A DNA stretch of 64,000 nucleotides, from the IMG/VR virus record IMGVR_UViG_3300028393_000001, positions 59,963 through 123,962 of that record, one strand, 5' to 3'. The DNA is from a virus. Shown in pieces: positions 368-37,855 of the stretch (positions are counted from its first letter, which is position 1; the number at the start of each line of letters is the position of its first letter). Both the position numbers and the translations under genes were made by a program. The notes under the pieces were generated by a model. It saw nothing but the letters and a program-made list of their open reading frames with translations. It had not been told where the DNA came from and made no database searches.

Positions 368-441
368 GGGCTTATAGTTAAACGGTATAACGGTAGCTTT
401 GCAAGCTTCAATTCGGAGTTCGATTCTCCGTTGGTCCACCA
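368..441 (+). tRNA. tRNA-Ala(TGC)
   Basis: Cloverleaf of 74 nt: acceptor GGGCTTA pairs with TTGGTCC (one mismatch), anticodon loop TTTGCAA, T-loop TTCGATT, and an encoded CCA end. It lies 11 nt after the Dps gene. Confidence 0.95.
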
Positions 442-463
442 CTTACACACACAAGGACATAAT

Positions 464-691
464 ATGTTTTCACTAGATTTTTACATTGACTCTTTTCAAT
501 CAACAAAAAGAGCTTTAACCAATCAGGTCTTTACTGACCCTAAACTGAACAAGGCTGCAAATAAATTTATTGACGCACAAACTCAGTTTGCAAAAATGCT
601 TGCACAAAATACAGTAGATATGCTAAAGTATTCCGCCGACGCTGTTACTAACAAAGCATTTCCAAAGGCGACCAAAAATGACACCGTTTGA
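464..691 (+). CDS. Small phasin-like helical protein, function unknown
   Basis: Encodes 75 residues beginning MFSLDFYIDSFQSTK. The ATG at 464 is chosen because AAGGA lies just upstream; a longer reading frame from 431 would run through the tRNA-Ala 3' end. The sequence is amphipathic and probably all helical (FIDAQTQFAKMLAQNTVDML), a little like the phasin fold of polyhydroxyalkanoate granule proteins, but the similarity is too weak to name it. It overlaps the next gene by 14 nt, and the two products look alike in size and helix content, so they may act together. Confidence 0.65.
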   Translation: MFSLDFYIDSFQSTKRALTNQVFTDPKLNKAANKFIDAQTQFAKMLAQNTVDMLKYSADAVTNKAFPKATKNDTV

Positions 692-902
692 AATTCGTGC
701 AGACCTGCTTAAACTAGCAGCAGATCACCTAGAAAAACAGTTTACAGCAAATGTAAAGTTTGCAACAGAATATAACAAGGCTATGTTCCAAGCAGGAACT
801 GCTGCTGCTACTGAAGCCTTAGTTAAAATGCCTACATACTTTACATCTGAAGATGTAATTAAAAAGGCAACAGAATTTTATAGTTTTGTTCAAACAAAAT
901 GA
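678..902 (+). CDS. Small helical protein, function unknown
   Basis: Encodes 74 residues, MTPFEIRADLLKLAADHLEK onward, with long amphipathic helices (FATEYNKAMFQAGTAAATEAL). It overlaps the preceding gene by 14 nt, and its TGA shares bases with the ATG of the next small gene, so translation is probably coupled. The sequence has a weak phasin-like look (helical, Ala-rich), as does the gene before it. I do not recognise a defined family. Confidence 0.65.
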   Translation: MTPFEIRADLLKLAADHLEKQFTANVKFATEYNKAMFQAGTAAATEALVKMPTYFTSEDVIKKATEFYSFVQTK

Positions 903-1042
903 AGTTATTTAAGTGCTTAAAACAATTCTTTGAGCCTAAAAATCCAATGCAAGATTTCATTGAGCGTCATAATCCTCAATCGGTTTATGATGTAGAACGA
1001 TTGCAAAAAGAGTACGACAATCTTATATTTAAACTTAAGTAA
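899..1042 (+). CDS. Hypothetical 47-residue protein
   Basis: Short reading frame starting at the ATGA overlap with the preceding stop and ending TAA at 1040-1042. The product begins MKLFKCLKQFFEPKNP and is charged and probably helical toward the end (DVERLQKEYDNLIFKLK). Support comes from the coupled start and the tight packing with the next gene, which begins two bases later. No family recognised. Confidence 0.5.
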   Translation: MKLFKCLKQFFEPKNPMQDFIERHNPQSVYDVERLQKEYDNLIFKLK

Positions 1043-1043
1043 T

Positions 1044-1241
1044 ATGCCCCTAGTAATTAAAGACCGTAAAGTAGTTTATCAGAAGCCAACTGTGGATGAA
1101 ATGCCTAAGATTGGTAAATATGTTAGCCTGAATCCAATCTTTCAAATGCATCGGGCACACGCTCATATTAGAAATCTATCAGAATCTATGAGTGTACTAC
1201 AACGTAGTTTAATTCCTGGTGCATTAGAGCAATTAAAATAA
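1044..1241 (+). CDS. Hypothetical 65-residue protein
   Basis: Encodes a 65-residue basic protein starting MPLVIKDRKVVYQK. It follows the previous stop by one base and ends just before tRNA-Asn. No motif that I can name; the C-terminal half (MHRAHAHIRNLSESMSVLQR) is probably helical. Confidence 0.55.
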   Translation: MPLVIKDRKVVYQKPTVDEMPKIGKYVSLNPIFQMHRAHAHIRNLSESMSVLQRSLIPGALEQLK

Positions 1242-1242
1242 T

Positions 1243-1318
1243 TCCCTAGTAGCACAGCGGTAGTTGCACTTGACTGTTAATCAAGTTGTCCGTGGTTCGA
1301 TCCCACGCTGGGGAGCCA
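1243..1318 (+). tRNA. tRNA-Asn(GTT)
   Basis: 76 nt. Acceptor TCCCTAG pairs with CTGGGGA, anticodon loop CTGTTAA, T-arm GTGGTTCGATCCCAC, encoded GCCA end. Confidence 0.96.
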
Positions 1319-1323
1319 TAAAA

Positions 1324-1370
1324 TAGGCCTAAACAGGCTAGTCCAGGTGCAAGTCCTGGAATTTGTACTT
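1324..1370 (+). other. Two small hairpins, possible tRNA 3'-half remnant or leader RNA
   Basis: Between tRNA-Asn and the gene at 1420 there is a 5-bp hairpin with loop AAAC, then a hairpin CCAGG-TGCAAGT-CCTGG whose 7-nt loop looks like a T-loop. No acceptor stem or 5' half can be found, so it is not an intact tRNA. It may be a decayed tRNA or part of the 5' leader of the next gene. Confidence 0.35.
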
Positions 1371-1419
1371 GAATTTTCCTTAAAAATCAATTAAAATAAT
1401 CCTTTAACTAGGAACACTT

Positions 1420-1884
1420 ATGATTAAACTAAACGACTTTTTAAACATTACCGAATATGAAACTGGACACCTTGAGGTTGTCCATCAACAAGACGTATAT
1501 GGCAAAACTGCTATTAGTCTTGAAGTCTATGGCTTTGAATTTAATAAACTAATATGCGTATATGATATAGTATCGCAAGAAGTCCTAGAAATCATAGCCA
1601 AAGACGATGCTGCTGGTAAAAGTTATGTGTGGCAAACTTCAGACATTAAAGGTTTAGGCAACTATCGCGACTACCTAATTGAGCTAGAAGCAGAAGAAGA
1701 TATTTTAGAAAAAGCTGAAGCTATTTTCTTTAATAAGCCTTATGATTCACGAATAGTTGTTCCTATTGATATTAAAGACGAAGACTTCCTCTTATACGCA
1801 AAAGCTGCACATAAACTAGACATTACTATTAATGAGTTTATGGAACAAGCCATTCAGGAAATGGTAGAAAAATATAAAGGATAA
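1420..1884 (+). CDS. Conserved-looking phage protein with possible ribbon-helix-helix C-terminus
   Basis: Encodes 154 acidic residues beginning MIKLNDFLNITEYETGHLEV. The N-terminal two thirds look like a mixed alpha/beta domain. The last 45 residues (VVPIDIKDEDFLLYAKAAHK, then LDITINEFMEQAIQEMV) have the strand-helix-helix pattern of ribbon-helix-helix DNA-binding proteins. That reading is an inference from pattern alone. AGGAACACTT precedes the ATG. The next gene follows after 3 nt, suggesting one operon. Confidence 0.7.
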   Translation: MIKLNDFLNITEYETGHLEVVHQQDVYGKTAISLEVYGFEFNKLICVYDIVSQEVLEIIAKDDAAGKSYVWQTSDIKGLGNYRDYLIELEAEEDILEKAEAIFFNKPYDSRIVVPIDIKDEDFLLYAKAAHKLDITINEFMEQAIQEMVEKYKG

Positions 1885-1887
1885 CAT

Positions 1888-2085
1888 ATGAACGTAAACA
1901 GAGTTTCTCTTCAAAAGGAAGAAGTGTACCGCCAGTGGGAAATTAAAAAGTTAGACAAGCGGCACGAAGAACTTCGAATAGAAGAACAACGTGCTAAGTT
2001 AGATCTTATAGACAATGAGCAAGCAAGAGTTGAAATGAATCGTCGAATGAATCGTCCAGGACAAAATGTAGATAGGATGGCATAA
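1888..2085 (+). CDS. Hypothetical coiled-coil protein
   Basis: Encodes 65 residues, almost all charged and predicted to be one long helix (QWEIKKLDKRHEELRIEEQR). AAAGGA lies before the ATG. Its stop TAA overlaps the ATG of the next gene (TAATG), so the two are likely translated together. Function unknown. Confidence 0.6.
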   Translation: MNVNRVSLQKEEVYRQWEIKKLDKRHEELRIEEQRAKLDLIDNEQARVEMNRRMNRPGQNVDRMA

Positions 2086-2306
2086 TGGCGAAACCTAAAC
2101 CAAAACGTAAACCCACGGGGGCTATCGACATTCAGCCAGAAGGTCCACACGTTCCGGCTATGCCTCCAGTACAAGGAAGTTCAATGATTAGTCCAGTAAG
2201 TCCCGTCGAGGCGGGTGGTGGAACGTATAACCGTCCACCGCCTAAGCCTCAACCTTCAAAACCAATGAAGACTCCTAAACCTAAACCTCCGATGCCTAAG
2301 GCTTAG
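2085..2306 (+). CDS. Small Lys/Pro-rich protein
   Basis: Encodes 73 residues with basic, proline-rich ends (MAKPKPKRKPTG and KPMKTPKPKPPMPKA) and a Gly/Pro middle. The composition suggests a disordered, nucleic-acid-binding protein, but no fold can be assigned. Coupled by a TAATG overlap to the preceding coiled-coil gene. Confidence 0.6.
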   Translation: MAKPKPKRKPTGAIDIQPEGPHVPAMPPVQGSSMISPVSPVEAGGGTYNRPPPKPQPSKPMKTPKPKPPMPKA

Positions 2307-2307
2307 T

Positions 2308-2409
2308 ATGCCCAGTCCTCGTAGAACCAGTCAGATTTTAAAGGGGAAGAAGCCGCCTAAGCCCCGAAGCCTAAATGCAATGGCTAAAAGATCGGCGCGC
2401 AAAAAATAA
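2308..2409 (+). CDS. Hypothetical 33-residue basic peptide
   Basis: ATG one base after the previous stop; product MPSPRRTSQILKGKKPPKPR followed by a basic tail ending ARKK. Very basic like its upstream neighbour. The stop runs directly into tRNA-Ser, whose first base is 2410. Support is the coupled position and similar composition. Confidence 0.45.
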   Translation: MPSPRRTSQILKGKKPPKPRSLNAMAKRSARKK

Positions 2410-2496
2410 GGAAGATGTGTTGCAAGGTGCAACAGAGGCTTGCTAAGCCTTCGTCTAGAAATAGGCCGATAGGTTCGATTCCTATATCTTCCGCCA
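2410..2496 (+). tRNA. tRNA-Ser(GCT)
   Basis: 87 nt with a long variable arm. Acceptor GGAAGAT pairs with ATCTTCC, anticodon loop TTGCTAA, T-arm AGGTTCGATTCCT, encoded GCCA. Confidence 0.95.
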
Positions 2497-2499
2497 CTT

Positions 2500-2574
2500 A
2501 GCCGTGTAGCTCAGAGGAAGAGCAAACGCTTGATAAGCGTTAGGTCGACATCTCGGAATTGTCCATGGCTACCA
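2500..2574 (+). tRNA. tRNA-Ile(GAT)
   Basis: 75 nt. Acceptor AGCCGTG pairs with CATGGCT, D-arm TAGCTCAGAGGAAGAGC, anticodon loop TTGATAA, encoded ACCA. The T-arm is unusual: GACAT-CTCGGAA-TTGTC has a mismatch and no TTC at the loop start. Confidence 0.88.
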
Positions 2575-2598
2575 TAATTATCATTAGAAGGATATAAT

Positions 2599-2787
2599 AT
2601 GAAATACCAAAATTCAATGTGGGGCGATTACAGCCCTACTCCAGCGGTTGAACAGATCGGCGTGCAGATAGAAGCAGACAATCAACCTGAGATGGTTGTA
2701 ACAGCCCAACAAATGGCTACAGACCCCTCGTGTACTACAACAGAGGATATGATTGCAGCAATGGGTACAGTACCAGCACGCTCATAA
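2599..2787 (+). CDS. Hypothetical 62-residue acidic protein
   Basis: Encodes 62 residues beginning MKYQNSMWGDYSPTPAVEQI, preceded by GAAGGATATAAT that contains AAGGA. It sits between tRNA-Ile and tRNA-Trp. The product is acidic, with no motif I recognise. Confidence 0.55.
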   Translation: MKYQNSMWGDYSPTPAVEQIGVQIEADNQPEMVVTAQQMATDPSCTTTEDMIAAMGTVPARS

Positions 2788-2801
2788 AGCTAATTTTAAG
2801 T

Positions 2802-2876
2802 GTCTCTCTAGTGTAATGGCAGCATCACAGATTCCAAATCTGTTAGGTCAGGGTTCGAGTCCTTGGGGGGATGCCA
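2802..2876 (+). tRNA. tRNA-Trp(CCA)
   Basis: 75 nt. Acceptor GTCTCTC pairs with GGGGGAT (several G-U pairs), anticodon arm ACAGA-TTCCAAA-TCTGT, T-arm CAGGGTTCGAGTCCTTG, encoded CCA. Confidence 0.93.
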
Positions 2877-2896
2877 ACTTTTTAACAGGATATTTT

Positions 2897-3316
2897 ATGA
2901 AAAAATTTATTTCAATTGCCGTTATCTCTTTTGCTGGCGTTGTTAATGCCGGAGAAATTACAGCCTCCTACTTAACCGATAGCGGACGTGATGGATATGC
3001 CATTAGTACACAGGTCAAAGGCGTTACCCTTGGAGCCTCACACGTTGATCGTGTTTATGACCGCTTCTCAGTAGGTAAATCTTTTGATATTGCTAAAGTC
3101 GGACCACTACAACTAGCAGCAGGCGGAAGCGGAGTATATCAAAGTACTCTTGCTAAAAATGATAGTGGTTATGGCCTAGCAGCTCAGGTAACAGCAACTG
3201 CTGCGGTCAATAAAAACGTTGACGTAGTTGCTGGCGTACAGAAGTTCTGGGGACAGGACCGCGTGAGTGCTCAAAATGGTAACTCGGCTACTGTTGGAAT
3301 TAAAGTTAAGTTTTAA
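2897..3316 (+). CDS. Exported small outer-membrane-barrel-like protein
   Basis: Encodes 139 residues. The ATG at 2897 follows AACAGGATATTTT and starts a clear Sec signal peptide, MKKFISIAVISFAGVVNA, with cleavage likely after NA. The mature part has alternating hydrophobic strands and a C-terminal VGIKVKF, ending in Phe as outer membrane beta-barrel proteins often do. A role as a phage-encoded surface protein (for example blocking superinfection) is inference. It is directly followed by the tmRNA region. Confidence 0.7.
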   Translation: MKKFISIAVISFAGVVNAGEITASYLTDSGRDGYAISTQVKGVTLGASHVDRVYDRFSVGKSFDIAKVGPLQLAAGGSGVYQSTLAKNDSGYGLAAQVTATAAVNKNVDVVAGVQKFWGQDRVSAQNGNSATVGIKVKF

Positions 3317-3319
3317 TTT

Positions 3320-3416
3320 AAATACACTACTTGCCACTTAATAAATATATGCGGAGACGTTCCGGACTGTGTCATTCCGCGGGTAACTGGGAGCACCCAG
3401 CATAGGTAGTGTGTTT
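3320..3416 (+). repeat. Hairpin with outer stem AAATACACTAC / GTAGTGTGTTT
   Basis: 3320-3330 pairs with 3406-3416 (one G-U). Inside are GCGGA...TCCGC and CTGGG-AGCA-CCCAG hairpins. The outer stem sequence is close to that of the hairpin at 5563-5643. It may belong to the tmRNA acceptor piece or be a separate leader structure. Confidence 0.65.
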
Positions 3417-3486
3417 TTTATTTTATAGTTGTATGAAGTAGACAGAAAAGTGTCTTGGACGGGGGTGCGAATCCCCCCAGGTCCAC

Positions 3487-3543
3487 CAGAAGTATATTCG
3501 ACCTCACACGCGGAGAGGTGAAATATAACAGAATATACTTCTG
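3487..3543 (+). repeat. 12-bp helix closing the tmRNA spacer
   Basis: 3487-3498 (CAGAAGTATATT) is the exact reverse complement of 3532-3543. It begins within the CCA end of the acceptor piece and ends three bases before the coding piece, enclosing an inner hairpin ACCTC...GAGGT. Confidence 0.9.
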
Positions 3544-3631
3544 ATGGGCCTGCATAGTTTCGACAGGGCAAAGAGTAGGAAAATGGACAACTCGGTAGGC
3601 GATGACCGTTAATCAAGCAAAACAAGTAAAC

Positions 3632-3664
3632 GCAAACGACTCACAGTTCGCATTAGCAGCCTAA
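3632..3664 (+). other. tmRNA proteolysis-tag reading frame
   Basis: Codons GCA AAC GAC TCA CAG TTC GCA TTA GCA GCC TAA give tag ANDSQFALAA. The tag starts with the resume codon GCA and ends in the ALAA degron seen in many proteobacterial tags. Confidence 0.93.
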
Positions 3665-3722
3665 ACACTGCTTAGGGTTTTGATAAGTTTTCCTCGTAAC
3701 AGAATAAACTTATCTCAAATAC

Positions 3723-3798
3723 CGCAGAGTATGGAAGTGGTCATCCGTCTGGTCTCATAAGCCTGAAATCGTTGGTTCGAATCCAACCTCTGCATCCA
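3723..3798 (+). tRNA. Initiator tRNA-fMet(CAT)
   Basis: 76 nt. Acceptor CGCAGAG faces CTCTGCA, leaving a C1-A72 mismatch, the hallmark of bacterial initiator tRNA. Anticodon loop CTCATAA; anticodon stem with GG/CC pairs; T-arm GTTGG-TTCGAAT-CCAAC; encoded CCA. It starts a few bases after the tmRNA coding piece. Confidence 0.92.
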
Positions 3799-3816
3799 AT
3801 ACGAAAGGAAAATTGT

Positions 3817-4050
3817 ATGAAATTAAAATCTACTCCAGGTGCAATGGCAAATGCCAAGATACCTACATCCGTAAGCTACGGAGCAGATGCCCCCTCCTTA
3901 GATGCTGATATGGGTGTAGAGGATATTAGTCCTACAGGTACTGATATGGATGATATTCCACCAGGCAGTTTTGAGTTATTGACTCCAACAGTTAATAATA
4001 TTAAAATTACACACGAAGGTGATATGGGACGACTAAGTCCCCTAGAATAA
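3817..4050 (+). CDS. Hypothetical 77-residue acidic protein
   Basis: ATG at 3817 after GAAAGGAAAATTGT; a longer frame from 3772 would cover the tRNA and is rejected. The product, MKLKSTPGAMANAKIPTSVS onward, is Asp/Pro-rich and probably unstructured in the middle (DADMGVEDISPTGTDMDDIP). No family recognised. It lies between tRNA-fMet and tRNA-Gly. Confidence 0.55.
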   Translation: MKLKSTPGAMANAKIPTSVSYGADAPSLDADMGVEDISPTGTDMDDIPPGSFELLTPTVNNIKITHEGDMGRLSPLE

Positions 4051-4057
4051 AAGATGA

Positions 4058-4132
4058 GCGGGCATGGTGCTAGTGGTAACACATATCCTTGCCAAGGACA
4101 AGTTGCGAGTTCGATTCTCGCTGCCCGCTCCA
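4058..4132 (+). tRNA. tRNA-Gly(GCC)
   Basis: 75 nt. Acceptor GCGGGCA pairs with TGCCCGC, anticodon loop TTGCCAA, T-arm GCGAGTTCGATTCTCGC, encoded TCCA. Its CCA end is the first part of a 20-bp helix that runs to tRNA-Ser. Confidence 0.96.
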
Positions 4133-4223
4133 TATATAAATATACTACTAAACCCGCTGAGTCAGGTTTAACTACTGGAGTTCTGAAAAGAAGGTGTCGT
4201 AAGAGTAGTATATTTATATATGG
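4130..4223 (+). repeat. 20-bp perfect helix joining tRNA-Gly and tRNA-Ser
   Basis: 4130-4149 is the exact reverse complement of 4204-4223. The left arm begins at the CCA of tRNA-Gly and the right arm ends on the first GG of tRNA-Ser(TGA). The 54-nt inside holds a hairpin AAACC...GGTTT and then an unpaired A/G-rich stretch. Confidence 0.95.
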
Positions 4224-4313
4224 AAGATAATGCAGCGGGGTTGGTCCTGCGACTGGCCTTGAAAACCAGGTTCTCTTAACAGGGATGGGGTTCGACTCCT
4301 CTGTCTTCCGCCA
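4222..4313 (+). tRNA. tRNA-Ser(TGA)
   Basis: 92 nt with long variable arm. Acceptor GGAAGAT pairs with GTCTTCC, anticodon loop CTTGAAA, T-arm GGGGTTCGACTCCT, encoded GCCA. Confidence 0.93.
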
Positions 4314-4318
4314 ATATT

Positions 4319-4885
4319 ATGAAAAAAACAATATTATCACTATTTGATTACTCAGGTAATTGGCCTAGCCCTTATAAACGGGCAGGGTATGATGTGTATC
4401 AAGTTGACGTTAAACTAGGTATAGATATCTTAGAACTTCAACCCGAGGACATACCTGATAATGTCTATGGTATATTAGCTGCTCCTCCTTGTACAGATTT
4501 TGCAGGCTCAGGAGCACAGTACTGGAAAGCTAAAGACATAGACGGACGTACTGATAGTAGTCTAGCCCTAGTAGATAAAACATTAGAAATTATTTCTTGG
4601 TGTGACCCTAAATTTTGGGTGCTGGAAAATCCTGTAGGTAGACTAAGTAAACTTAGACCCAAACTAGGAGATCCCTGGTATTTTCAGCCTTGGCATTATG
4701 GTGATGCCTATACTAAGAAAACAGGGTTATGGGGTAATTTCAATAAAAGTTTAGTAAAACAGGAGGTAATTCCTGATCCTAATTCTTGGATAATGAAACT
4801 AGGTGGTAAATCGGAGAGAACAAAAGAATTACGCTCAATGACTCCTTTAGGATTTGCAGAGGCTTTCTTTAAAGCAAACCCATAA
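4319..4885 (+). CDS. DNA (cytosine-5) methyltransferase-like protein
   Basis: 188 residues. Residues 54-65 contain APPCTDFAGSG, the Pro-Cys motif IV that carries the catalytic cysteine (C58) of C5-cytosine methyltransferases, and ENPVGRL near residue 103 is the motif VI counterpart (ENV in most). The N-terminus ILSLFDYSGNW is the S-adenosylmethionine-binding motif I region. At 188 residues it is shorter than usual enzymes (300+) and has no visible separate target-recognition domain; many phages carry such short forms. Likely role: modifying phage DNA against host restriction. No cognate endonuclease is seen. Confidence 0.85.
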   Translation: MKKTILSLFDYSGNWPSPYKRAGYDVYQVDVKLGIDILELQPEDIPDNVYGILAAPPCTDFAGSGAQYWKAKDIDGRTDSSLALVDKTLEIISWCDPKFWVLENPVGRLSKLRPKLGDPWYFQPWHYGDAYTKKTGLWGNFNKSLVKQEVIPDPNSWIMKLGGKSERTKELRSMTPLGFAEAFFKANP

Positions 4886-4893
4886 ATTTAGAT

Positions 4894-4922
4894 TTGAACT
4901 GTGAGTTAAAATTCTTTATAAT
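4894..4922 (+). promoter_or_regulatory. Sigma70-type promoter
   Basis: TTGAAC, 17-bp spacer, TATAAT (4917-4922), seven bases before the ATG at 4929. Confidence 0.8.
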
Positions 4923-4928
4923 ATCAGT

Positions 4929-5156
4929 ATGAAAAAGAAATTTAATATCCAATCTCTCTCGCCGCAAATGTCTACACCTAGAGTAACTCGCACGGATATT
5001 CCGAGCTTGTATACTCCTGGGGGTAACTGTACCCTAAAAGAAACACCTAAGTATACAGGCGACCAAATGATTGGTATTTCAATCATTCATAAGTCCTGCC
5101 TACAACCTATCTTTAGTCAACAAGAGGCTATTGATGCAGCAAGTATGCGACGTTAG
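4929..5156 (+). CDS. Hypothetical 75-residue protein
   Basis: First gene after a promoter whose -10 ends at 4922, so the transcript would be almost leaderless unless it begins at a later ATG. Product begins MKKKFNIQSLSPQMSTPRVT and ends with MIGISIIHKSCLQPIFSQQE plus a short tail. This C-terminal pattern resembles small proteins of other tailed phages, but no function is known to me. The next gene starts one base after the stop. Confidence 0.65.
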   Translation: MKKKFNIQSLSPQMSTPRVTRTDIPSLYTPGGNCTLKETPKYTGDQMIGISIIHKSCLQPIFSQQEAIDAASMRR

Positions 5157-5157
5157 T

Positions 5158-5439
5158 ATGGCTAAGTCGTTTGCAGAAATTAAAAAATCATTAGGCTTAC
5201 TAGACTTTATCCAGTTTGGTAAGTATCGTGGTTGTCGTGTAGACTCCATAGTTGCTATGGATGACGACTACCTTCGTTATATGCAAACACAAGGTATCAA
5301 GTTTGATGCTAGTGTAATGGATGCACTAACCAATAAGTTTTCAGCTGATTCTATAGAAGTAGGGTATGACCCTCGTGAAGTTCAAGAAGTAGATGAGCAT
5401 GGTTATGGCCCTATATATTTTGGCGACGTGCCTTGGTAA
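5158..5439 (+). CDS. Small DUF3820-like protein
   Basis: 93 residues beginning MAKSFAEIKKSLGLLDFIQF. The stretch FGKYRGCRVDSIVAMDDDYL followed by RYMQTQ fits the FGKYKG...D.DYLRWM pattern of the DUF3820 / exonuclease-associated small domain. ATG at 5158 is one base after the preceding stop; an in-frame upstream start at 5071 would overlap that gene widely. Biochemical role unknown. Confidence 0.65.
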   Translation: MAKSFAEIKKSLGLLDFIQFGKYRGCRVDSIVAMDDDYLRYMQTQGIKFDASVMDALTNKFSADSIEVGYDPREVQEVDEHGYGPIYFGDVPW

Positions 5440-5461
5440 ATTAATAATAAGGAGAGCTGTC

Positions 5462-5500
5462 ATGACAAGTGACAAGAGTGACAAACTGCCGGGGGTATAA
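5462..5500 (+). CDS. Possible 12-residue leader peptide overlapping tRNA-Lys
   Basis: AAGGAGAGCTGTC gives a strong ribosome binding site 5 bases before an ATG that opens MTSDKSDKLPGV and stops at TAA inside the first bases of tRNA-Lys (starts 5491). It may be the start of a gene that was replaced by the tRNA, or a real short peptide. Confidence 0.3.
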   Translation: MTSDKSDKLPGV

Positions 5501-5565
5501 CTTAGCGGCTAAAGTAACTGGCTTTTAACCAGTAAATCAGGGTTCGATTCCCTGTGCCCCTACCA
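5491..5565 (+). tRNA. tRNA-Lys(TTT)
   Basis: 75 nt. Acceptor GGGGGTA pairs with TGCCCCT (first pair G-U), anticodon arm CTGG-CTTTTAA-CCAG, T-arm CAGGGTTCGATTCCCTG, encoded ACCA. Confidence 0.95.
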
Positions 5566-5643
5566 TATAAAAATACACTGTCCTAGGCTGTGACCTAGTC
5601 CATCAGAAGTCCTCAGAGACAGAAGCAGTGTGTTTCTATATGG
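5563..5643 (+). repeat. 18-bp helix joining tRNA-Lys and tRNA-Met/Ile(CAT)
   Basis: 5563-5580 pairs with 5626-5643: 16 Watson-Crick pairs, one G-U and one A-C. The arms begin at the CCA of tRNA-Lys and end on the GG of the next tRNA. Inside is a hairpin CTAGG-CTGTGA-CCTAG and an unpaired A/G-rich part. Confidence 0.92.
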
Positions 5644-5716
5644 TAATGTAGGACAATGGTAGTCCACCTCCTTCATACGGAGAATGCTAGTGGTTCGAGT
5701 CCACTCATTACCACCA
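5642..5716 (+). tRNA. tRNA with anticodon CAT (Met or lysidine-modified Ile)
   Basis: 75 nt. Acceptor GGTAATG pairs with CATTACC, anticodon loop TTCATAC, T-arm AGTGGTTCGAGTCCACT, encoded ACCA. One of three CAT tRNAs here. Its loop differs from the usual CTCATAA of Met tRNAs, so it could be the AUA-reading Ile tRNA. Confidence 0.88.
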
Positions 5717-5722
5717 AGTTAT

Positions 5723-5795
5723 GTGTGAGAGCCAGATTAGTGATGGTGCTGATGTATTTCAGTGAAAGAGTGAGCGAACCCACTTCCACACACCA
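5723..5795 (+). other. tRNA-like degenerate element ending in CCA
   Basis: GTGTGAG at 5723 can pair with TCCACAC before an ACCA end at 5795. A D-like arm, a hairpin CTGA-TGTATT-TCAG and a T-like arm GAGTG-AGCGAACC-CACTT follow the tRNA order. The anticodon loop has 6 and the T-loop 8 bases, and the D-loop lacks GG. It is either a decayed tRNA or an unusual tRNA-like RNA. Confidence 0.4.
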
Positions 5796-5798
5796 AGT

Positions 5799-6019
5799 TT
5801 TGTTAAAGTGTTAGCAAGAGAAATCACGCTGATTAGTATTCTTCGAAGGTACTAATCAGTAGAAAGTTGCGGGTTCGATTCCCGACTTATCGCCGTTTAC
5901 GGTGGAGGTATACAGGGGCGTATCAACTGGATGAATCCCAAGTAACGTACCGAGACCTTGCCGGCCTTGTATAATAAGGTGAATGGTTCCGATAATATGG
6001 GTGGAACTACTTTAACAAA
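5799..6019 (+). ncRNA. Candidate structured RNA with tRNA T-arm, ends closed by 11-bp helix
   Basis: 5799-5809 is the exact reverse complement of 6009-6019. Inside lie a 10-bp perfect hairpin (5829-5838 with 5850-5859), a canonical T-arm CGGG-TTCGATT-CCCG (5870-5884) followed by TTATCG, hairpins near 5965-5979 (CCTT-GTATAAT-AAGG) and 5984-6005, and CGATAA at 5990 that could pair with TTATCG. No coding frame of note. The order 3' half before 5' half resembles the permuted tmRNA in this genome. Alternative: several unrelated hairpins plus a tRNA fragment. Confidence 0.5.
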
Positions 6020-6027
6020 TTAAATAC

Positions 6028-6101
6028 TGGGGGATAGTTAAACGGTATAACCGCGGATTTTGATTCCGCTATCCTAGGTTCGATTCCTAGTCCCTCTGCC
6101 A
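6028..6101 (+). tRNA. tRNA-Gln(TTG)
   Basis: 74 nt. Acceptor TGGGGGA faces TCCCTCT with an open first pair, as is usual for tRNA-Gln. Anticodon loop TTTTGAT, T-arm CTAGGTTCGATTCCTAG, encoded GCCA. Confidence 0.93.
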
Positions 6102-6104
6102 CCT

Positions 6105-6199
6105 AAGTGTTTAGGCGTGGCCATGTTGTAACGGTTAGCAACAGAGATTGTGATTCTCTTAGTCTGGGTTCGATTCCCAGTGGTCACCCCTAAACACTT
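6105..6199 (+). repeat. 11-bp inverted repeat flanking tRNA-His
   Basis: AAGTGTTTAGG (6105-6115) is the exact reverse complement of 6189-6199. It lies directly outside the tRNA-His acceptor stem and would extend it to a helix of about 18 bp, occupying nearly all of the spacer to both neighbouring tRNAs. Confidence 0.93.
6117..6188 (+). tRNA. tRNA-His(GTG)
   Basis: Acceptor GTGGCCA pairs with TGGTCAC, discriminator C at 6188 (typical of His), anticodon loop in AGAGA-TTGTGAT-TCTCT, T-arm CTGGGTTCGATTCCCAG. CCA is not encoded (CCT follows), unlike the other tRNAs here. The base at -1 is C, so G-1 would have to be added. Confidence 0.92.
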
Positions 6200-6200
6200 T

Positions 6201-6275
6201 CGGTCTTTAGTAAAATGGATATTACACAACGCTACGAACGTTGGAGTGGGAGTTCGATTCTCTCAGGATCGACCA
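6201..6275 (+). tRNA. tRNA-Arg(ACG)
   Basis: 75 nt. Acceptor CGGTCTT pairs with AGGATCG, anticodon arm CAACG-CTACGAA-CGTTG, T-arm GGGAGTTCGATTCTCT, encoded ACCA. The A34 would need deamination by host TadA. Confidence 0.94.
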
Positions 6276-6281
6276 ATTAAT

Positions 6282-6355
6282 GCGGAGTTAGTTTAATGGT
6301 AAAACAGCAGATTTCCAATCTTCGGTCAAGGGTTCGATTCCCTTACCCCGCTCCA
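6282..6355 (+). tRNA. tRNA-Gly(TCC)
   Basis: 74 nt. Acceptor GCGGAGT pairs with ACCCCGC (one mismatch), anticodon loop TTTCCAA, T-arm AAGGGTTCGATTCCCTT, encoded TCCA. Confidence 0.95.
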
Positions 6356-6367
6356 GTCTAAAATACT

Positions 6368-6538
6368 ATGCTTAGTAAAAAAGAATTTCACGGCGACCAG
6401 TTCTATGCTTGGGCCGCCCAACAATATGAAGCTGCCCGAGTTTACTTAAAGAATTGTGGTAGACCCAAAGATGAATATGATCGTTGGCTTATTGAACAGG
6501 CCAAATTTGACGCAGTTCTCTTCAAAAGATTTATTTAA
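6368..6538 (+). CDS. Hypothetical 56-residue protein
   Basis: ATG at 6368, stop TAA at 6536-6538, between tRNA-Gly and tRNA-Val. The product, MLSKKEFHGDQFYAWAAQQY onward, is charged and probably helical. No family recognised and no strong ribosome binding site, so support is moderate. Confidence 0.5.
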   Translation: MLSKKEFHGDQFYAWAAQQYEAARVYLKNCGRPKDEYDRWLIEQAKFDAVLFKRFI

Positions 6539-6539
6539 T

Positions 6540-6614
6540 GCATCCTTAGCTCAGGGGTAGAGCGTCTCTTTTACACGGAGAGGGTCCGCGGTTCGAAACC
6601 GTGAGGATGTACCA
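6540..6614 (+). tRNA. tRNA-Val(TAC)
   Basis: 75 nt. Acceptor GCATCCT pairs with AGGATGT, D-arm TAGCTCAGGGGTAGAGC, anticodon loop TTTACAC, T-arm GCGGTTCGAAACCGT, encoded ACCA. Confidence 0.96.
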
Positions 6615-6616
6615 AC

Positions 6617-6692
6617 GCAACTTTAGCTGATGTGGTCATAGCGCTGGTCTGAAGAACCAGTGAACTAGGTTCGATTCCTAGAGGTTGCACCA
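6617..6692 (+). tRNA. tRNA-Phe(GAA)
   Basis: 76 nt. Acceptor GCAACTT pairs with AGGTTGC, anticodon arm CTGGT-CTGAAGA-ACCAG, T-arm CTAGGTTCGATTCCTAG, encoded ACCA. Confidence 0.96.
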
Positions 6693-6697
6693 GATAT

Positions 6698-6775
6698 ATA
6701 TAGGCGTGCGCTGAACGGCGAGGCAGTGGATTGCAAATCCTCATAATGCAGGTTCGAGTCCTGTCGCCTATTCCA
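6698..6775 (+). tRNA. tRNA-Cys(GCA)
   Basis: Acceptor ATAGGCG pairs perfectly with CGCCTAT, anticodon arm GGA-TTGCAAA-TCC, T-arm GCAGGTTCGAGTCCTGT, encoded TCCA. The next tRNA starts at the very next base. Confidence 0.92.
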
Positions 6776-6850
6776 GGTCTTAAAGTGTTCATGGACGCAC
6801 ACAACACTGTCACTGTTGAAGAAGGGGATCGTTACCCCTTGAGACCGCCA
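6776..6850 (+). tRNA. tRNA-Asp(GTC)
   Basis: 75 nt. Acceptor GGTCTTA pairs with TGAGACC, anticodon arm CAACA-CTGTCAC-TGTTG, T-arm AGGGG-ATCGTTA-CCCCT (loop without TTC), discriminator G and encoded CCA. Confidence 0.9.
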
Positions 6851-6856
6851 AATTTT

Positions 6857-6922
6857 TGCAATGCTCATTATGAGATTGCACCTGGGCATGTTGCCCAAAA
6901 GTTCTTGCTTATAAAAGGAGAA
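6857..6922 (+). promoter_or_regulatory. ROSE-like RNA thermometer in the hsp20 leader
   Basis: Three hairpins precede the hsp20 start: 6857-6880 (TGCAAT...ATTGCA with inner CTCAT/ATGAG), 6884-6896 (GGGCA-TGT-TGCCC), and 6902-6922. In the last, TTCTTGCTT pairs with AAGGAGAA containing the Shine-Dalgarno, with G6907 of the TTGCT box left bulged. This is the layout of ROSE elements, which melt on heating to free the ribosome binding site of small heat-shock genes. Confidence 0.72.
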
Positions 6923-6925
6923 AAT

Positions 6926-7348
6926 ATGACAGAACTAACCGTGGGTCAAGTAAACTTTGGATCCAACCTCAATCGTGCTTTAATTGGTTTTGACCAACTA
7001 TTCAATAACTTAGAATATGTACAAACTACAAATTATCCACCGTACAACGTAATCAAATCTGATGAAGATAATTATATCATTGAAGTGGCTGTAGCTGGTT
7101 TCAAGAAACCGGAAATTAAAGTAGAAATTGACAATAATAAACTATCAGTAAAAGGTTCTAAAGAGAAAGAGGATACAAAAACGCAGTATCTTCACCATGC
7201 ACTTAGTGCTAGAAACTTTAATCATCAGTTTACTATTGCAGAAAATATGGTGATTAAGTCAGCCACTTTGGAAGATGGAATACTTCAAGTATTAATTAAA
7301 CGTATTGTTCCAGAATCCAAAAAAGTACGTACAATAGATATTCTATAA
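6926..7348 (+). CDS. hsp20: Small heat-shock protein (Hsp20 / alpha-crystallin family)
   Basis: 140 residues. The ATG at 6926 follows AAAAGGAGAAAAT, a strong ribosome binding site; a longer frame from 6731 would run through tRNAs. Residues about 37-130 form an alpha-crystallin domain (NVIKSDEDNYIIEVAVAGFK; LSVKGSKEKED; ATLEDGILQVLIKRIVPE), with the conserved A/G-x-L-x-x-G-x-L motif as ATLEDGIL-V. It lacks only the terminal I-x-I style tail, ending instead in RTIDIL. Small heat-shock proteins hold unfolding proteins for refolding; phage members are known in cyanophages. Regulation is probably by the thermometer just upstream, and an intrinsic terminator follows at 7363. Confidence 0.93.
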   Translation: MTELTVGQVNFGSNLNRALIGFDQLFNNLEYVQTTNYPPYNVIKSDEDNYIIEVAVAGFKKPEIKVEIDNNKLSVKGSKEKEDTKTQYLHHALSARNFNHQFTIAENMVIKSATLEDGILQVLIKRIVPESKKVRTIDIL

Positions 7349-7362
7349 TCGTAATCTTAATA

Positions 7363-7395
7363 AGAGGACTAAAGACAACTTTAGTCCTCTTTTTA
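7363..7395 (+). terminator. Intrinsic terminator after hsp20
   Basis: 12-bp perfect stem AGAGGACTAAAG / CTTTAGTCCTCT with loop ACAA followed by TTTTT. Confidence 0.95.
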
Positions 7396-7412
7396 GTTTA
7401 AAAATTATATAC

Positions 7413-7441
7413 TTGAAATACTATTCAAATTTTGATATAAT
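7413..7441 (+). promoter_or_regulatory. Sigma70-type promoter
   Basis: TTGAAA, 17-bp spacer, TATAAT (7436-7441), 24 bp before the ATG at 7466. Confidence 0.88.
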
Positions 7442-7465
7442 TATATCTTACAAACACATTATATT

Positions 7466-7897
7466 ATGAAAAACCCTATGTTTCCCTTTCCAATGATTAC
7501 AGTCAAAAATGCTCGTGACGATGGCACTAATGTACAGGATGTTATTAACCATATTAAATTAGCTGAGGATAATCTTCGTAAAGAGATGTTGCTTAAAGCT
7601 AAACTTTGTGGTGTTGGTATTGTACATATTAAAAGTGCAGAAGGCGAGTGGCGTAAAGGCGGTATGACAGTTGCCTTTAAAAAGTCTAATCAATATAAGT
7701 ATGGCCGTATGGTAGAAGTAGCCGTGGCTGTTTGTAGCCCAGAAGATACTTTTAGCCGTAAAATCGGTACTCAAATGGCCCTAGAAAAATTCTTCTCACA
7801 AAAAGTAATTGAGTTGCCCTTGTTAGAATTTTATGGTCAGGAAGATATTAACATGGCAGTTAAAAAAGCATTTACAGCTATGTGGCACGCGATATAA
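7466..7897 (+). CDS. Hypothetical 143-residue protein
   Basis: First gene behind a near-consensus promoter. Product MKNPMFPFPMITVKNARDDG onward is a mixed alpha/beta protein with no signal peptide or membrane segment. No Shine-Dalgarno is visible in the roughly 20-nt leader (ACAAACACATTATATT). I do not recognise a family. tRNA-Leu and tRNA-Met follow within 5 bases. Confidence 0.75.
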   Translation: MKNPMFPFPMITVKNARDDGTNVQDVINHIKLAEDNLRKEMLLKAKLCGVGIVHIKSAEGEWRKGGMTVAFKKSNQYKYGRMVEVAVAVCSPEDTFSRKIGTQMALEKFFSQKVIELPLLEFYGQEDINMAVKKAFTAMWHAI

Positions 7898-7902
7898 TTA
7901 AT

Positions 7903-7985
7903 GCGGGTGTGGTGGAATGGTAGACACAGGAGACTTAAAATCTCCCGCTTTATGCGTGCTGGTTCGACTCCAGTCACCCGTACCA
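7903..7985 (+). tRNA. tRNA-Leu(TAA)
   Basis: 83 nt, class II with variable arm. Acceptor GCGGGTG pairs with CACCCGT, anticodon arm GGAGA-CTTAAAA-TCTCC, T-arm CTGGTTCGACTCCAG, encoded ACCA. Confidence 0.95.
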
Positions 7986-7990
7986 AAATC

Positions 7991-8065
7991 TCCTGTCTAG
8001 CATAATGGTAGTGCCGCGAACTCATAATTCGTACAGTCTGGGTTCGACTCCCGGGGCAGGAACCA
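7991..8065 (+). tRNA. tRNA-Met(CAT), probably elongator
   Basis: 75 nt. Acceptor TCCTGTC pairs with GGCAGGA, anticodon arm GCGAA-CTCATAA-TTCGT, T-arm CTGGGTTCGACTCCCGG, encoded ACCA. Fully paired acceptor start, so not an initiator. Confidence 0.92.
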
Positions 8066-8095
8066 AATTTTGTAATCTTAATAAGGAAAATCTAA

Positions 8096-8488
8096 GTGGC
8101 AATTAAACGTGGTAAATCAGCAGAAAGTCATTTTGCATCATATAAAACTTCAAAGCGTTGGGAATCTAATCGCAGGAAGAAGCTAGAACGTCAACTTAAA
8201 CTACAGCCTAACAATGAGCAAGTAAAGAAAGCCTTCTCTAATATTCATTACAGACGTAAAACTCCTGTAGTACGTGAATGGAGTGCCACTACGATTAGAA
8301 TGGCTAAAATAGTTAAACTATTTACAGGTAGGTTTGATCGAGATATTTTAAGCTCAAATAAAGATACAGCATCCTTAGCTATTCAGAAATCAGCATCTAG
8401 ACCAGAGCAACAAAAAAGTAAAATCCAGATTGCAGACAAAAACTTCTTCTCCATTGGTGCTCGCCTAAGTAGTGGCTCGCTTGCATGA
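8096..8488 (+). CDS. Basic protein of unknown function, GTG start
   Basis: 130 residues, starting at GTG 8096 behind AAGGAAAATCTAA, which fits a ribosome binding site. The N-terminal half is strongly basic (MAIKRGKSAESHFASYKTSK; WESNRRKKLERQL), suggesting RNA or DNA binding. No known domain is recognised. It overlaps the next gene by 4 bases (ATGA). Confidence 0.7.
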   Translation: MAIKRGKSAESHFASYKTSKRWESNRRKKLERQLKLQPNNEQVKKAFSNIHYRRKTPVVREWSATTIRMAKIVKLFTGRFDRDILSSNKDTASLAIQKSASRPEQQKSKIQIADKNFFSIGARLSSGSLA

Positions 8489-8736
8489 GTTTTATTGACT
8501 GGTATTTACTATTCAGTTTAACAACAGCAGTATGTGCAGTATGGGAACTACTAGTTCCTGTAATGAATACAGAAAAAGAAGAAATGGGTAAGATTGACGC
8601 AGAAAAACTAATATATATAGTGTTTTTTATAATGTCAATTATATTAGCTCCTTTAGTATTTCTTAGTTGTATAATCCCCTCTATGAGCGATAGATTTAGA
8701 AGTTCGTTACATAGTGGGCTTTTTCCCAAAGAATAA
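8485..8736 (+). CDS. Small membrane protein with two transmembrane segments
   Basis: 83 residues. Two hydrophobic stretches (WYLLFSLTTAVCAVWELLV and LIYIVFFIMSIILAPLVFLS) separated by a charged linker (MNTEKEEMGKIDAEK) predict an integral inner-membrane protein with both segments crossing. Starts in an ATGA overlap with the preceding gene. Function unknown. Confidence 0.72.
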   Translation: MSFIDWYLLFSLTTAVCAVWELLVPVMNTEKEEMGKIDAEKLIYIVFFIMSIILAPLVFLSCIIPSMSDRFRSSLHSGLFPKE

Positions 8737-8747
8737 AAAATTTGCAG

Positions 8748-8776
8748 TTGCACTGTAATGCTTAAACAGGTATAAT
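8748..8776 (+). promoter_or_regulatory. Sigma70-type promoter
   Basis: TTGCAC, 17-bp spacer, TATAAT (8771-8776), 28 bp before the ATG at 8805. Confidence 0.85.
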
Positions 8777-8804
8777 ATATACTTAAACAGCCCAATAAAC
8801 AACT

Positions 8805-9080
8805 ATGAAAACACTAACATTTAAATACGCAAAAGCAGATGGTTCAGTTTCTTATCGCTCACTTCTAGTGATGGTATCCCCTAATACTATGTATGAGGGC
8901 CTGGATATTTCAGAACTAGAGTCAGCAGACCAAGCTGAATTTGAGTCCCTAATGAGTTCAGCGTACAATAATTATATTAATGAAATTAATACTCTAAAAG
9001 AAGAGTTTGACATTAAGCACAGTTATCGTCGTTTTGACCCCAAGAAAATGACTGAGATCAATGAATTGGAAAAAGTATAA
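8805..9080 (+). CDS. Hypothetical 91-residue protein
   Basis: Behind its own promoter. Product MKTLTFKYAKADGSVSYRSL onward begins with a beta-hairpin-like stretch and continues as an acidic helix (ELESADQAEFESLMSSAYNN). The start resembles small WYL-like or SH3-like beta domains, but this is weak. tRNA-Thr begins two bases after its stop. Confidence 0.7.
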   Translation: MKTLTFKYAKADGSVSYRSLLVMVSPNTMYEGLDISELESADQAEFESLMSSAYNNYINEINTLKEEFDIKHSYRRFDPKKMTEINELEKV

Positions 9081-9081
9081 C

Positions 9082-9156
9082 GCCGGATTAGCATAGTGGT
9101 AGTGCTCCCGCCTTGTAAGCGGGAGGTCGTTAGTTCGATTCTAACATCCGGCACCA
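9082..9156 (+). tRNA. tRNA-Thr(TGT)
   Basis: 75 nt. Acceptor GCCGGAT pairs with ATCCGGC, anticodon arm CCGC-CTTGTAA-GCGG, T-arm GTTAGTTCGATTCTAAC, encoded ACCA. Last tRNA of the bank in this window. Confidence 0.96.
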
Positions 9157-11311: not shown

Positions 11312-12265
11312 ATGAACAAGATAAAAGCCTACTTAGATGAAGCCTCGATTGCCTACTACTCGGGTAGTCCTATTATTAGTGATGAAGCATTCGACAGATT
11401 AGCCGAAACCTCAGGCTATATGAAGGTAGGCGCTCGTCAACACGATAATATCGCAAAACACCTCTACCCTATGTACAGTTTGCAAAAGTACTACGAGGAT
11501 GAAGGTGTAGCCCCCATTCAAGGGGTCAAAGACATTACTGTAAGTGTTAAACTAGATGGCGCTGCTGTCAGCCTACTTTATGCGAACGGAGAGTTAGTTC
11601 AAGCTCTTACTCGTGGAGACGGCATTGAAGGCACAGATATTACAGAAAAATTCCTTGCCCGCCGAGATCTAGCCCCCTTAAAAGTACCCAGGCTTGATGT
11701 ATTTCAGGTTACTGGTGAAATTGTCGCGTCTAAGGAAATTCCAAATAGTCGTAACTATGCGGCAGGTGCTCTTAACTTAAAAGATATGAATGAGTTTAGG
11801 ACTCGTGCAGTATCTTTCTATGCTTACGGCGTATTTCCTTATGAGCAGCCTACCTTTGTCCGAGACATGGTTATCTTGACTACTCAAGGTTTTCAAACCA
11901 TAATAGCTAAAGAACTAGATAAAATCTATCCATGTGATGGATTAGTATTCCGAGTAAATGACAATCACGAATTTGAAAAACTTGGATATACTTCAAAACA
12001 TCCTCGCGGAGCATATGCAAAAAAAGAACGCCAAGCCGCTGTTGAGACAACTATCGTATCAGTAGAGTGGAATGTAGGTAAATCAGGTAAAGTAACCCCC
12101 GTAGCCCACTTAGACCCAGTTTATATTGGTGATAAGTTAGTGAGTAAAGCAACCTTAAACAATCCTGGGTTTATTGAAATGTTGAATATCTGCATAGGCG
12201 ACCGAGTAGGAGTTATACTAGGCGGAGAGATTATTCCATGCATTACCCACAAAGTAGAATCATAA
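11312..12265 (+). CDS. ligA: NAD-dependent DNA ligase, N-terminal (adenylation/OB) subunit
   Basis: 317 residues. The start has the Ia-domain pattern (AYLDEASIAYYSGSPIISDE, with YY and D..D), then the adenylation motif V-K-L-D-G-A with the lysine that takes AMP (SVKLDGAAVSLLY), then ALTRGDGIEGTDIT, GEIV, CDGLVFRV, KHPRGAYAKK and an OB-fold (GDKLVSKATLNN; GDRVGVILGGEIIP). The Zn finger, HhH and BRCT domains are missing here and occur in the next gene. Phage T5 also has a two-gene ligase, so this looks like a natural split and not a frameshift: the pieces are 93 bp apart with a promoter between. Confidence 0.95.
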   Translation: MNKIKAYLDEASIAYYSGSPIISDEAFDRLAETSGYMKVGARQHDNIAKHLYPMYSLQKYYEDEGVAPIQGVKDITVSVKLDGAAVSLLYANGELVQALTRGDGIEGTDITEKFLARRDLAPLKVPRLDVFQVTGEIVASKEIPNSRNYAAGALNLKDMNEFRTRAVSFYAYGVFPYEQPTFVRDMVILTTQGFQTIIAKELDKIYPCDGLVFRVNDNHEFEKLGYTSKHPRGAYAKKERQAAVETTIVSVEWNVGKSGKVTPVAHLDPVYIGDKLVSKATLNNPGFIEMLNICIGDRVGVILGGEIIPCITHKVES

Positions 12266-12308
12266 TAAATTCAATCATACACATTAGACCAGCACAGAAA
12301 AAATAGAC

Positions 12309-12337
12309 TTGCCAAGGCACTCTAAATACAGTATAAT
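12309..12337 (+). promoter_or_regulatory. Sigma70-type promoter for ligB
   Basis: TTGCCA, 17-bp spacer, TATAAT (12332-12337), 21 bp before the ATG at 12359, lying between the two ligase genes. Confidence 0.83.
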
Positions 12338-12358
12338 AACACATAAATTGATAATACT

Positions 12359-13114
12359 ATGCAAAAGATTGAAATTCCTACAACTTGTCCATGCTGTTCC
12401 TACAAGCTAGAAATAGTCAATGAACAACTGTTCTGTAGAAATCTATCCTGCGAGGCTCAATTAGGTAAAAAGCTAGAGCATTTTACAAAGACTTTAGGTA
12501 TCAAAGGTTTTGGCCCTAAGACTATTGAGAAACTTGGTTTAGCTGATATTACAGAACTTTTTTACTTAGATAAGGCTTCCGTTGTTGAAGCACTTGGAAG
12601 TGAGAAAGTAACAGATAAGCTCCTAGATGAAATCGAAAGAGCTAAAGGTGCAGATCTAGCCACCGTTTTAGCGTCATTTTCTATCCCTTTAGTGGGTGGA
12701 ACTGCTTCTAAGAAAATTGCTAGTGTAGTTAGTTCTATAGAAGAAATTACACAAGAAACCTGCAAACAAGCAGGCCTTGGAGATAAAGTTACTTCTAATC
12801 TATTGAACTGGATTAGTATGGATTATCCAGAAGTAAAAGAGTTCTTGCCATTCTCTTTTAAGTCCAGTGAAGTAAAACCTGTTAGTACAAGTGGCCCAAC
12901 TATTTGTATTACTGGTAAGTTATCCTCATTTAAAACAAAATCAGAAGCAACCAAGATATTGGAAGCAGCAGGTTTTATAGTAGTAGAGTCCGTAACAAAG
13001 ACTTTAAAGTATCTAGTAGATGAGGACAGCAAAGGAAGTACAAAGCGCAAAAAAGCAGAAGAATATGGCGTAACAATAGTAACAAATCTAACCGATTTTG
13101 TATCAAAATTTTAA
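12359..13114 (+). CDS. ligB: NAD-dependent DNA ligase, C-terminal (Zn-finger/HhH/BRCT) subunit
   Basis: 251 residues. A four-Cys zinc finger (CPCCSYKLEIVNEQLFC and CRNLSCEA, residues about 9-37) is followed by helix-hairpin-helix repeats (GIKGFGPKTIEKLG; ASFSIPLVGGTASKKIA) and a C-terminal BRCT domain (ICITGKLSSFKTKSEATKIL; residues about 180-251). These are the parts absent from the upstream ligase gene, so the two products should assemble into one ligase. It has its own promoter. ATG after an AT-rich leader. Confidence 0.94.
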   Translation: MQKIEIPTTCPCCSYKLEIVNEQLFCRNLSCEAQLGKKLEHFTKTLGIKGFGPKTIEKLGLADITELFYLDKASVVEALGSEKVTDKLLDEIERAKGADLATVLASFSIPLVGGTASKKIASVVSSIEEITQETCKQAGLGDKVTSNLLNWISMDYPEVKEFLPFSFKSSEVKPVSTSGPTICITGKLSSFKTKSEATKILEAAGFIVVESVTKTLKYLVDEDSKGSTKRKKAEEYGVTIVTNLTDFVSKF

Positions 13115-37712: not shown

Positions 37713-37855
37713 TTTTGCTCCTCTTGTTGCTCTGTGGTACCTTGCCTTAGTACCTCAACGGCTTGTCTATCCAAAACTACTTTATCTTTAGTAGCTCTAA
37801 TATTTTCATTTAAGTCCCGTAATTGGGCTAGTAAAGTTTCATAACTATCAGTCAT
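37709..37855 (-). CDS. Hypothetical 48-residue protein
   Basis: Starts in TGATG overlap at 37855 and ends in an ATGA overlap at 37709, so it is framed by coupled genes. Product MTDSYETLLAQLRDLNENIR onward, a charged helix with probable coiled coil. Function unknown. Confidence 0.6.
   Translation of the reverse strand: MTDSYETLLAQLRDLNENIRATKDKVVLDRQAVEVLRQGTTEQQEEQK

Follow-up and report, generated by a model that had tools for sequence, protein, structure and literature searches.

Positions 5799-6019 of the phage DNA analysed here probably hold the gene of a noncoding RNA of about 220 nt, which would represent a new family in phage tRNA arrays. Our best reading of it, which we regard as probable, is that of a small phage RNA that would associate with itself and mimic tRNA. 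Judging from its homologues, it is close to certain that the element is a conserved structured RNA and not a chance fold. We found no earlier description of the family in the open-access papers searched.

The window, i.e. the whole stretch of 64 kb that was analysed, forms part of a virus record of 123,962 bases. The phage DNA polymerase encoded in it shows 49% identity to its counterpart in Vibrio phage pVp-1 (Demerecviridae) and lies near DnaB helicase, an NAD ligase in two frames, SbcC and ribonucleotide reductase, so that the phage is probably T5-like. The NAD-dependent DNA ligase occupies 11312-13114, and a single open frame of 5286 aa runs on the - strand at 38438-54298. A tRNA array at 368-9156 comprises 19 tRNAs detected by ARAGORN and a permuted beta-type tmRNA (encoded at 3396-3755, with the tmRNA models matching 3374-3717), whose type suggests a betaproteobacterial host. 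Within this array the element sits between a CCA (5793-5795), the end of the preceding stretch, and a tRNA-Gln starting at 6028. Just upstream of it, 5717-5798 is cloverleaf-like; CCA lies near its end, its anticodon loop has six bases and its T-loop is unusual, and neither ARAGORN nor Rfam calls it as a tRNA. ARAGORN also missed a tRNA at 2500-2571 that Rfam reports with 48.6 bits, as well as a serine-tRNA-like gene at 4222-4312 with the anticodon loop CUUGAAA (hence UGA) and an odd D-arm. The best Rfam match of the latter is tRNA-Sec (36.9 bits, under the cut-off), and 62 columns are invariant over 15 aligned sequences of these phages. Two inter-tRNA spacers, 5562-5645 and 4130-4225, are each closed by a stem of ~19-22 bp and possibly constitute another RNA family; the fold of 5562-5645 has a z of -4.27 with 0 of 200 shuffles as good, a copy with 93% identity adjoins tRNA-Glu in record L063, and a similar one occurs in L185.

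A search with the T-arm sequence led to another phage, of 345 kb, whose sequence is 84% identical across about 190 nt. Patterns made from conserved blocks then yielded 11 stretches, subsequently 52, by a scan based on the conserved joining segment 5929-5953, and finally at least 120, some of these being chance matches (L047, L050 and L102 were rejected as such). Once duplicates had been removed and the presence of both conserved flanks verified, at least 112 distinct homologues remained. Five of the 112 are cut by contig ends and were left out, giving 107 full-length sequences, and dropping two near-identical or gappy ones gave the 105 sequences of the covariation and tree tests. All homologues come from IMG/VR contigs. 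No copy was found by blastn among 50,697 named phages, where only tRNA or chance matches appeared, and none of 11 pattern matches in bacterial genomes of GTDB was scored by the family model, which was built from 30 sequences. In each of 19 family-bearing phage records of 106-367 kb this model has a single strong match, one of the records containing an additional match of 17.5 bits, whereas it has none in the outside phages pVp-1 and FLC9.

The association with tRNA genes extends across the family. tRNA genes were detected in the locus of 106 of the 107 elements, one locus being without, and in 92 of the 107 a tRNA lies within 100 nt, all 151 such tRNAs being on the same strand as the element. 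An upstream tRNA is found within 60 nt of 69 elements, and in 55 of these its end is located exactly 13 or 15 nt before a conserved GUNAGC block; in many loci its CCA abuts the element. Contact with the CCA and fixed tRNA spacing would fit release of the RNA by tRNA processing.

Features of the element, with positions in the window
Feature	Position	Strand	Evidence or remark
Whole RNA element	5799-6019	+	Model R1 match 5792-6025, 230.7 bits, E 3.1e-63 (window sequence is among the model's 30 training rows); at least 112 distinct homologues
Predicted mature RNA	about 5796-6027	+	Span from after CCA 5793-5795 to before tRNA-Gln 6028
P1, 5' strand UUUGUUAAAGU	5799-5809	+	Perfect complement of 6009-6019; pair 5806-6012 E=0; 92.4% of cells paired (30 sequences)
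P2, weak hairpin with strongly conserved loop AGCAAGAGAA	5808-5827	+	Loop letters conserved in alignment; stem read by eye, competes with two inner P1 pairs
P3 hairpin, stem 5829-5838/5850-5859	5829-5859	+	5837-5851 E=0; 5838-5850 E=0.017
Palindrome 1 CUUCGAAG, P3 loop	5841-5848	+	Core UUCGAA in 92, UGGCCA in 9 of 105
P4, 5' strand AGUUG	5865-5869	+	Pairs with CAACU 5924-5928; closes tRNA-like module; corresponds to permuted-tRNA anticodon stem
T-arm CGGG-UUCGAUU-CCCG	5870-5884	+	Pair 5870-5884 E=0
Capped acceptor-like hairpin ACUU..CGCCG-UUUA-CGGUG..AGGU	5885-5909	+	Predicted on folding the post-T-arm stretch alone
D-arm-like hairpin AUAC-AGGGGC-GUAU, GG in loop	5910-5923	+	Family comparison
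P4, 3' strand CAACU	5924-5928	+	Both-side changes in 5/5 pairs; partner-swap test
Joining segment GGAUGAAUCCCAAGUAACGUACCGA, highly conserved	5929-5953	+	Alignment
P5 hairpin CCUU/AAGG	5956-5979	+	5958-5977 and 5959-5976 E=0
Palindrome 2 (GCCGGC), predicted self-pairing (kissing) loop in P5	5960-5965	+	5960-5965 and 5961-5964 E=0
P6 hairpin GUUCC..GGAAC, stem 5986-5990/6003-6007	5986-6007	+	5988-6005, 5989-6004 and 5990-6003 E=0
P1, 3' strand ACUUUAACAAA	6009-6019	+	Same evidence as P1, 5' strand

The original prediction had described a perfect 11-bp helix closing the region and a canonical T-arm, and both are present in the sequence as P1 and at 5870-5884. It had also implied an RNA outside known families, in agreement with the Rfam scan, in which no family covers the element and the best match up to E 10 is tRNA-Sec with 19.6 bits at a cut-off of 47, ruling out membership in that family. 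Likewise, neither ARAGORN nor RF00005 reports a canonical tRNA at 5799-6019. Folded as a single sequence, the element reaches -67.0 kcal/mol (z -2.86), a value that 1 of 200 shuffles matched, and with its flanks the z is -2.36 with 4 of 200 shuffles as good.

Covariation was assessed by an APC-corrected G-test on the 105 sequences, the null being 60 alignments simulated along the inferred tree, with E=0 thus meaning a value below about 0.02. Twelve position pairs have E<0.05, ten of which, all located in helices or in a palindrome, have E=0. The pair 5966-5969, which lies in the P5 loop outside any helix, is also significant; we attribute this to linked loop types and note that these add signal. 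A separate count on 30 sequences gave both-side changes in 35 of 53 pairs with 82.5% of the cells paired, and a covariation score of 0.301 vs. 0.128 after shuffling (reached in 0 of 500) and at most 0.092 when slid. In this count P6 has all cells paired and both-side changes in 5 of 5 pairs. The hairpin at 5984-6005, earlier regarded as a mere competing fold, is accordingly real: it is P6, with three covarying pairs. The acceptor-like and D-like hairpins are weaker in the same count (56-57% of cells paired), as the alignment there is poor. Comparison thus shows that the predicted covarying fold of P1, P3, the T-arm, P5 and P6 is conserved.

The self-complementary loops, which the original prediction had overlooked, are the most unusual feature of the RNA. 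At palindrome 2, 105 of the 107 sequences carry a perfect six-base palindrome, which comes in 12 types: CUCGAG (26), GCCGGC (23), CCCGGG (19), CGGCCG (11), GUCGAC (9), UCCGGA (6), CAGCUG (4), GCGCGC (3) and four singles. The centre in this count is the best of nine, the position-fixed test being the tree-based covariation; when segments are shuffled with their composition kept, just one in three or so contains any palindrome of at least six bases anywhere. In the 105 sequences the pair 5960-5965 is GC in 60, CG in 38 and UA in 4, and the pair 5961-5964 is CG in 66, UA in 37 and UC in 2, both with E=0. Since 5961-5964 encloses two bases, too few for a hairpin, we read it as pairing between copies. 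The central 5962-5963 is CG in 96, AU in 4 and GC in 4 of 105 and thus 99% self-complementary, its covariation being not significant (E=17) as it is too invariant. On a tree of the 105 sequences built without the P5 hairpin the hexamer changed at least 53 times, a figure to be taken as an index and not as a count of events, as the sequences recombine, which inflates it. A palindromic hexamer that switches its sequence yet stays self-complementary implies pairing between two RNA copies, and we consider it likely, from these substitutions, that the RNA pairs with further copies of itself through one or more of its palindromic loops. The same type of switching in loops of OLE and GOLLD, seen by cryo-EM, is used as evidence for inter-copy pairing in PMC12286853.

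Palindrome 1 switches in its flanks too, appearing as CUUCGAAG, GUUCGAAC, CUGGCCAG and AUGGCCAU. Its variation is low, with a minimum of 11 changes on the tree, none of its pairs is significant in the tree-based test on 105 sequences, and part of it may be an intramolecular stem. Loop 1 was found in 104 of 105 sequences by a search of a wider stretch; late-anchored rows (e.g. L046, L048, L064 and L072) depress several counts, including that of loop 1 in the 107-sequence set.

A different explanation of the palindromes is that they act in DNA, as sites for dimeric proteins, in recombination or in methylation, the RNA fold being merely a spacer or an aid to tRNA processing. The hexamers resemble restriction or methylation sites and the element is flush between tRNA genes, as this explanation would have it. 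However, a single binding site would hardly take the form of 12 different hexamers, and the palindrome lies within the loop of a covarying RNA hairpin, which makes an action in DNA very improbable.

The middle of the element resembles tRNA. In the window P4 closes a junction of the T-arm, the capped hairpin and the GG-loop hairpin with zero unpaired bases between them, the same order as in a tRNA whose acceptor end is closed and whose opening lies in the anticodon stem. P4 shows both-side changes in all five pairs in the 30-sequence set, and a naive partner-swap test gave 3.76 vs. a maximum of 3.40 in 200, a modest signal; no single P4 pair is significant in the tree-based test on 105 sequences, which is weak here because the wide mafft alignment misplaces the middle module. 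By pattern, 95 of 107 sequences have a stem that bears a seven-base loop of the T-loop type, a few of these picks being clearly wrong. By our rule the acceptor-like hairpin comes first in 42 of the 64 distinct middle segments, and in 39 of these 42 it is accompanied by a D-arm-like stem, which occurs in ten stem sequences and carries GG in 39 of 39 loops; in shuffle controls the stem appeared in 24% and the stem with GG in 12%. Of the other 22 segments some have hairpins missed by the rule and others are of a short A-rich type with a CGCAANN loop that lacks the module. It is likely, on the grounds of this comparison, that a permuted tRNA-like module is present, though not universally in the family.

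According to the original prediction, the permuted order would arise from TTATCG behind the T-arm pairing with a distant CGATAA as the 5' acceptor strand, making the element another permuted tRNA or tmRNA, either intact or in decay. Both motifs exist (5887-5892 and 5990-5995), the T-arm does precede acceptor and D-arm parts, and the same phage encodes a permuted tmRNA (RF04321, RF01850) in which the T-arm is likewise ahead of the 5' acceptor part. The six proposed pairs, however, form in 10-70% of the 105 homologues and do not covary (GTp near zero or below), and C5990 is part of a covarying pair in P6, so that the acceptor strand as drawn fails; the 5' acceptor-like strand is instead the second strand of the capped hairpin 5885-5909, which follows the T-arm directly. 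This cap, which takes the place of the CCA end of permuted tmRNA, leaves no free CCA end, and the RNA should consequently not be chargeable as tRNA or tmRNA. RF04321 and the beta tmRNA model RF01850 match only the tmRNA gene and not the element, and decay is contradicted by conserved helices that covary across over 100 phage sequences and by the single copy per record. A second permuted tRNA or tmRNA is thus contradicted and extremely unlikely.

Circular permutation of tRNA is also found in bacterial Y RNA (PDB 6CU1, PMC11472068), and the element might be a divergent Y RNA of the YrlA type, whose permuted tRNA-like module would link a host Ro60 ring with a nuclease. The order of T-arm, capped acceptor and D-arm within an outer closing helix is the same as in YrlA (RF02553), judging from PMC11472068 and the YrlA consensus, the likeness holding for those elements to which our rule assigns the acceptor-like hairpin (42 of the 64 distinct middle segments). 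The same phage contains, in its genome outside the window, a better YrlA-like stretch at G000:37806-37910 (33 bits). In the element itself the YrlA model matches only the 15-base T-arm, with 9.2 bits and an E of 8.7 at a cut-off of 69, and no Ro60 (TROVE) protein was found in 19 phage records, while the control matched in Deinobacterium. The element differs from YrlA, moreover, by a conserved core outside the module without YrlA counterpart, namely the extra hairpins P5 and P6, and by its palindromic loops; we know of no palindromic loops in YrlA. We regard a divergent Y RNA as improbable. The stretch at 37806-37910 is a YrlA-like RNA, as is 1501-1605 of record L054, with a closing stem, a T-arm, a capped hairpin and a D-arm-like hairpin; it scores below the cut-off of 69 bits, and ARAGORN reports no tRNA there.

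For a self-associating, tRNA-mimicking RNA we propose the following course of events. Processing of the flanking tRNAs would free the RNA, by 3' maturation at the upstream CCA and by RNase P at the downstream tRNA. The freed copies would dimerise or oligomerise through their palindromic loops, for which the P3 loop could provide a second interface, and the oligomer would display several mimics of the tRNA elbow. Its most likely use would be the binding of tRNA-handling factors while the phage infects its host, be it to divert host defences that cleave tRNA or to gather tRNA-processing or modifying enzymes, but such a decoy or recruiting role for tRNA-binding factors is a guess that we offer tentatively. 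Another speculative suggestion, and a rather doubtful one, is that the switching palindromic loop serves as a "barcode", each phage's RNA pairing with RNA of the same kind but not with the RNA of a co-infecting phage, and self-assembling to display permuted tRNA mimics alone or beside GOLLD cages. If true, the barcode reading would establish a new class of self-recognising, tRNA-mimicking RNA. The function of such phage RNAs is directly testable with a 220-nt transcript, the 12 natural palindromic loops serving as built-in controls.

GOLLD itself was detected above cut-off in 12 of 24 family-bearing records checked (L086 at 1448-1910, G007-G011, G014-G016, G022, G024 and G025). GOLLD and the element are 103-3518 nt apart on the same strand in the nine records measured, GOLLD being upstream in two and downstream in seven; in L086 the element follows the end of GOLLD (1910) by a few tens of bases. 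The two are separate neighbouring loci, as RF02032 (threshold 150 bits) has no match on the element. Nor does the ROOL model RF03087 match the element; it matched in 0 of 24 records, where no positive control matched either, leaving its sensitivity unproven. The shared loci might mean that the element serves GOLLD assemblies as a small accessory RNA, either co-assembling into GOLLD cages or acting beside them, particularly as phage origin, location in tRNA islands and palindromic loops are common to the two (for GOLLD, PMC12286853). We consider this unlikely: half of the records, including the window's own (124 kb, and possibly not complete), gave no GOLLD match, indicating that the element does not need GOLLD, and its position relative to GOLLD varies between upstream and downstream.

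In the HIV-1 dimer initiation site a hairpin loop carries a six-base palindrome, GUGCAC or GCGCGC, and both hexamers are among the types of palindrome 2. That site is a retroviral genome-packaging signal, unlike the element, and no relation is implied. The putative self-associating RNA also resembles GOLLD and ROOL, which are likewise phage-encoded near tRNA islands, and from which it differs by its T-arm/D-arm module. Many GOLLD RNAs exceed 800 nt, compared with 220 nt for the element, and switching of GOLLD palindromic loops is read as intermolecular kissing (both from PMC12286853), a reading that palindrome covariation would support for the element too. As described in PMC12286853, the homo-oligomeric natural RNAs GOLLD, ROOL and OLE are large and have only recently been seen by cryo-EM; beside them the present family would be a small, tractable RNA whose self-pairing has strong evolutionary evidence behind it and which carries a built-in tRNA mimic, encoded in GOLLD-bearing tRNA arrays.
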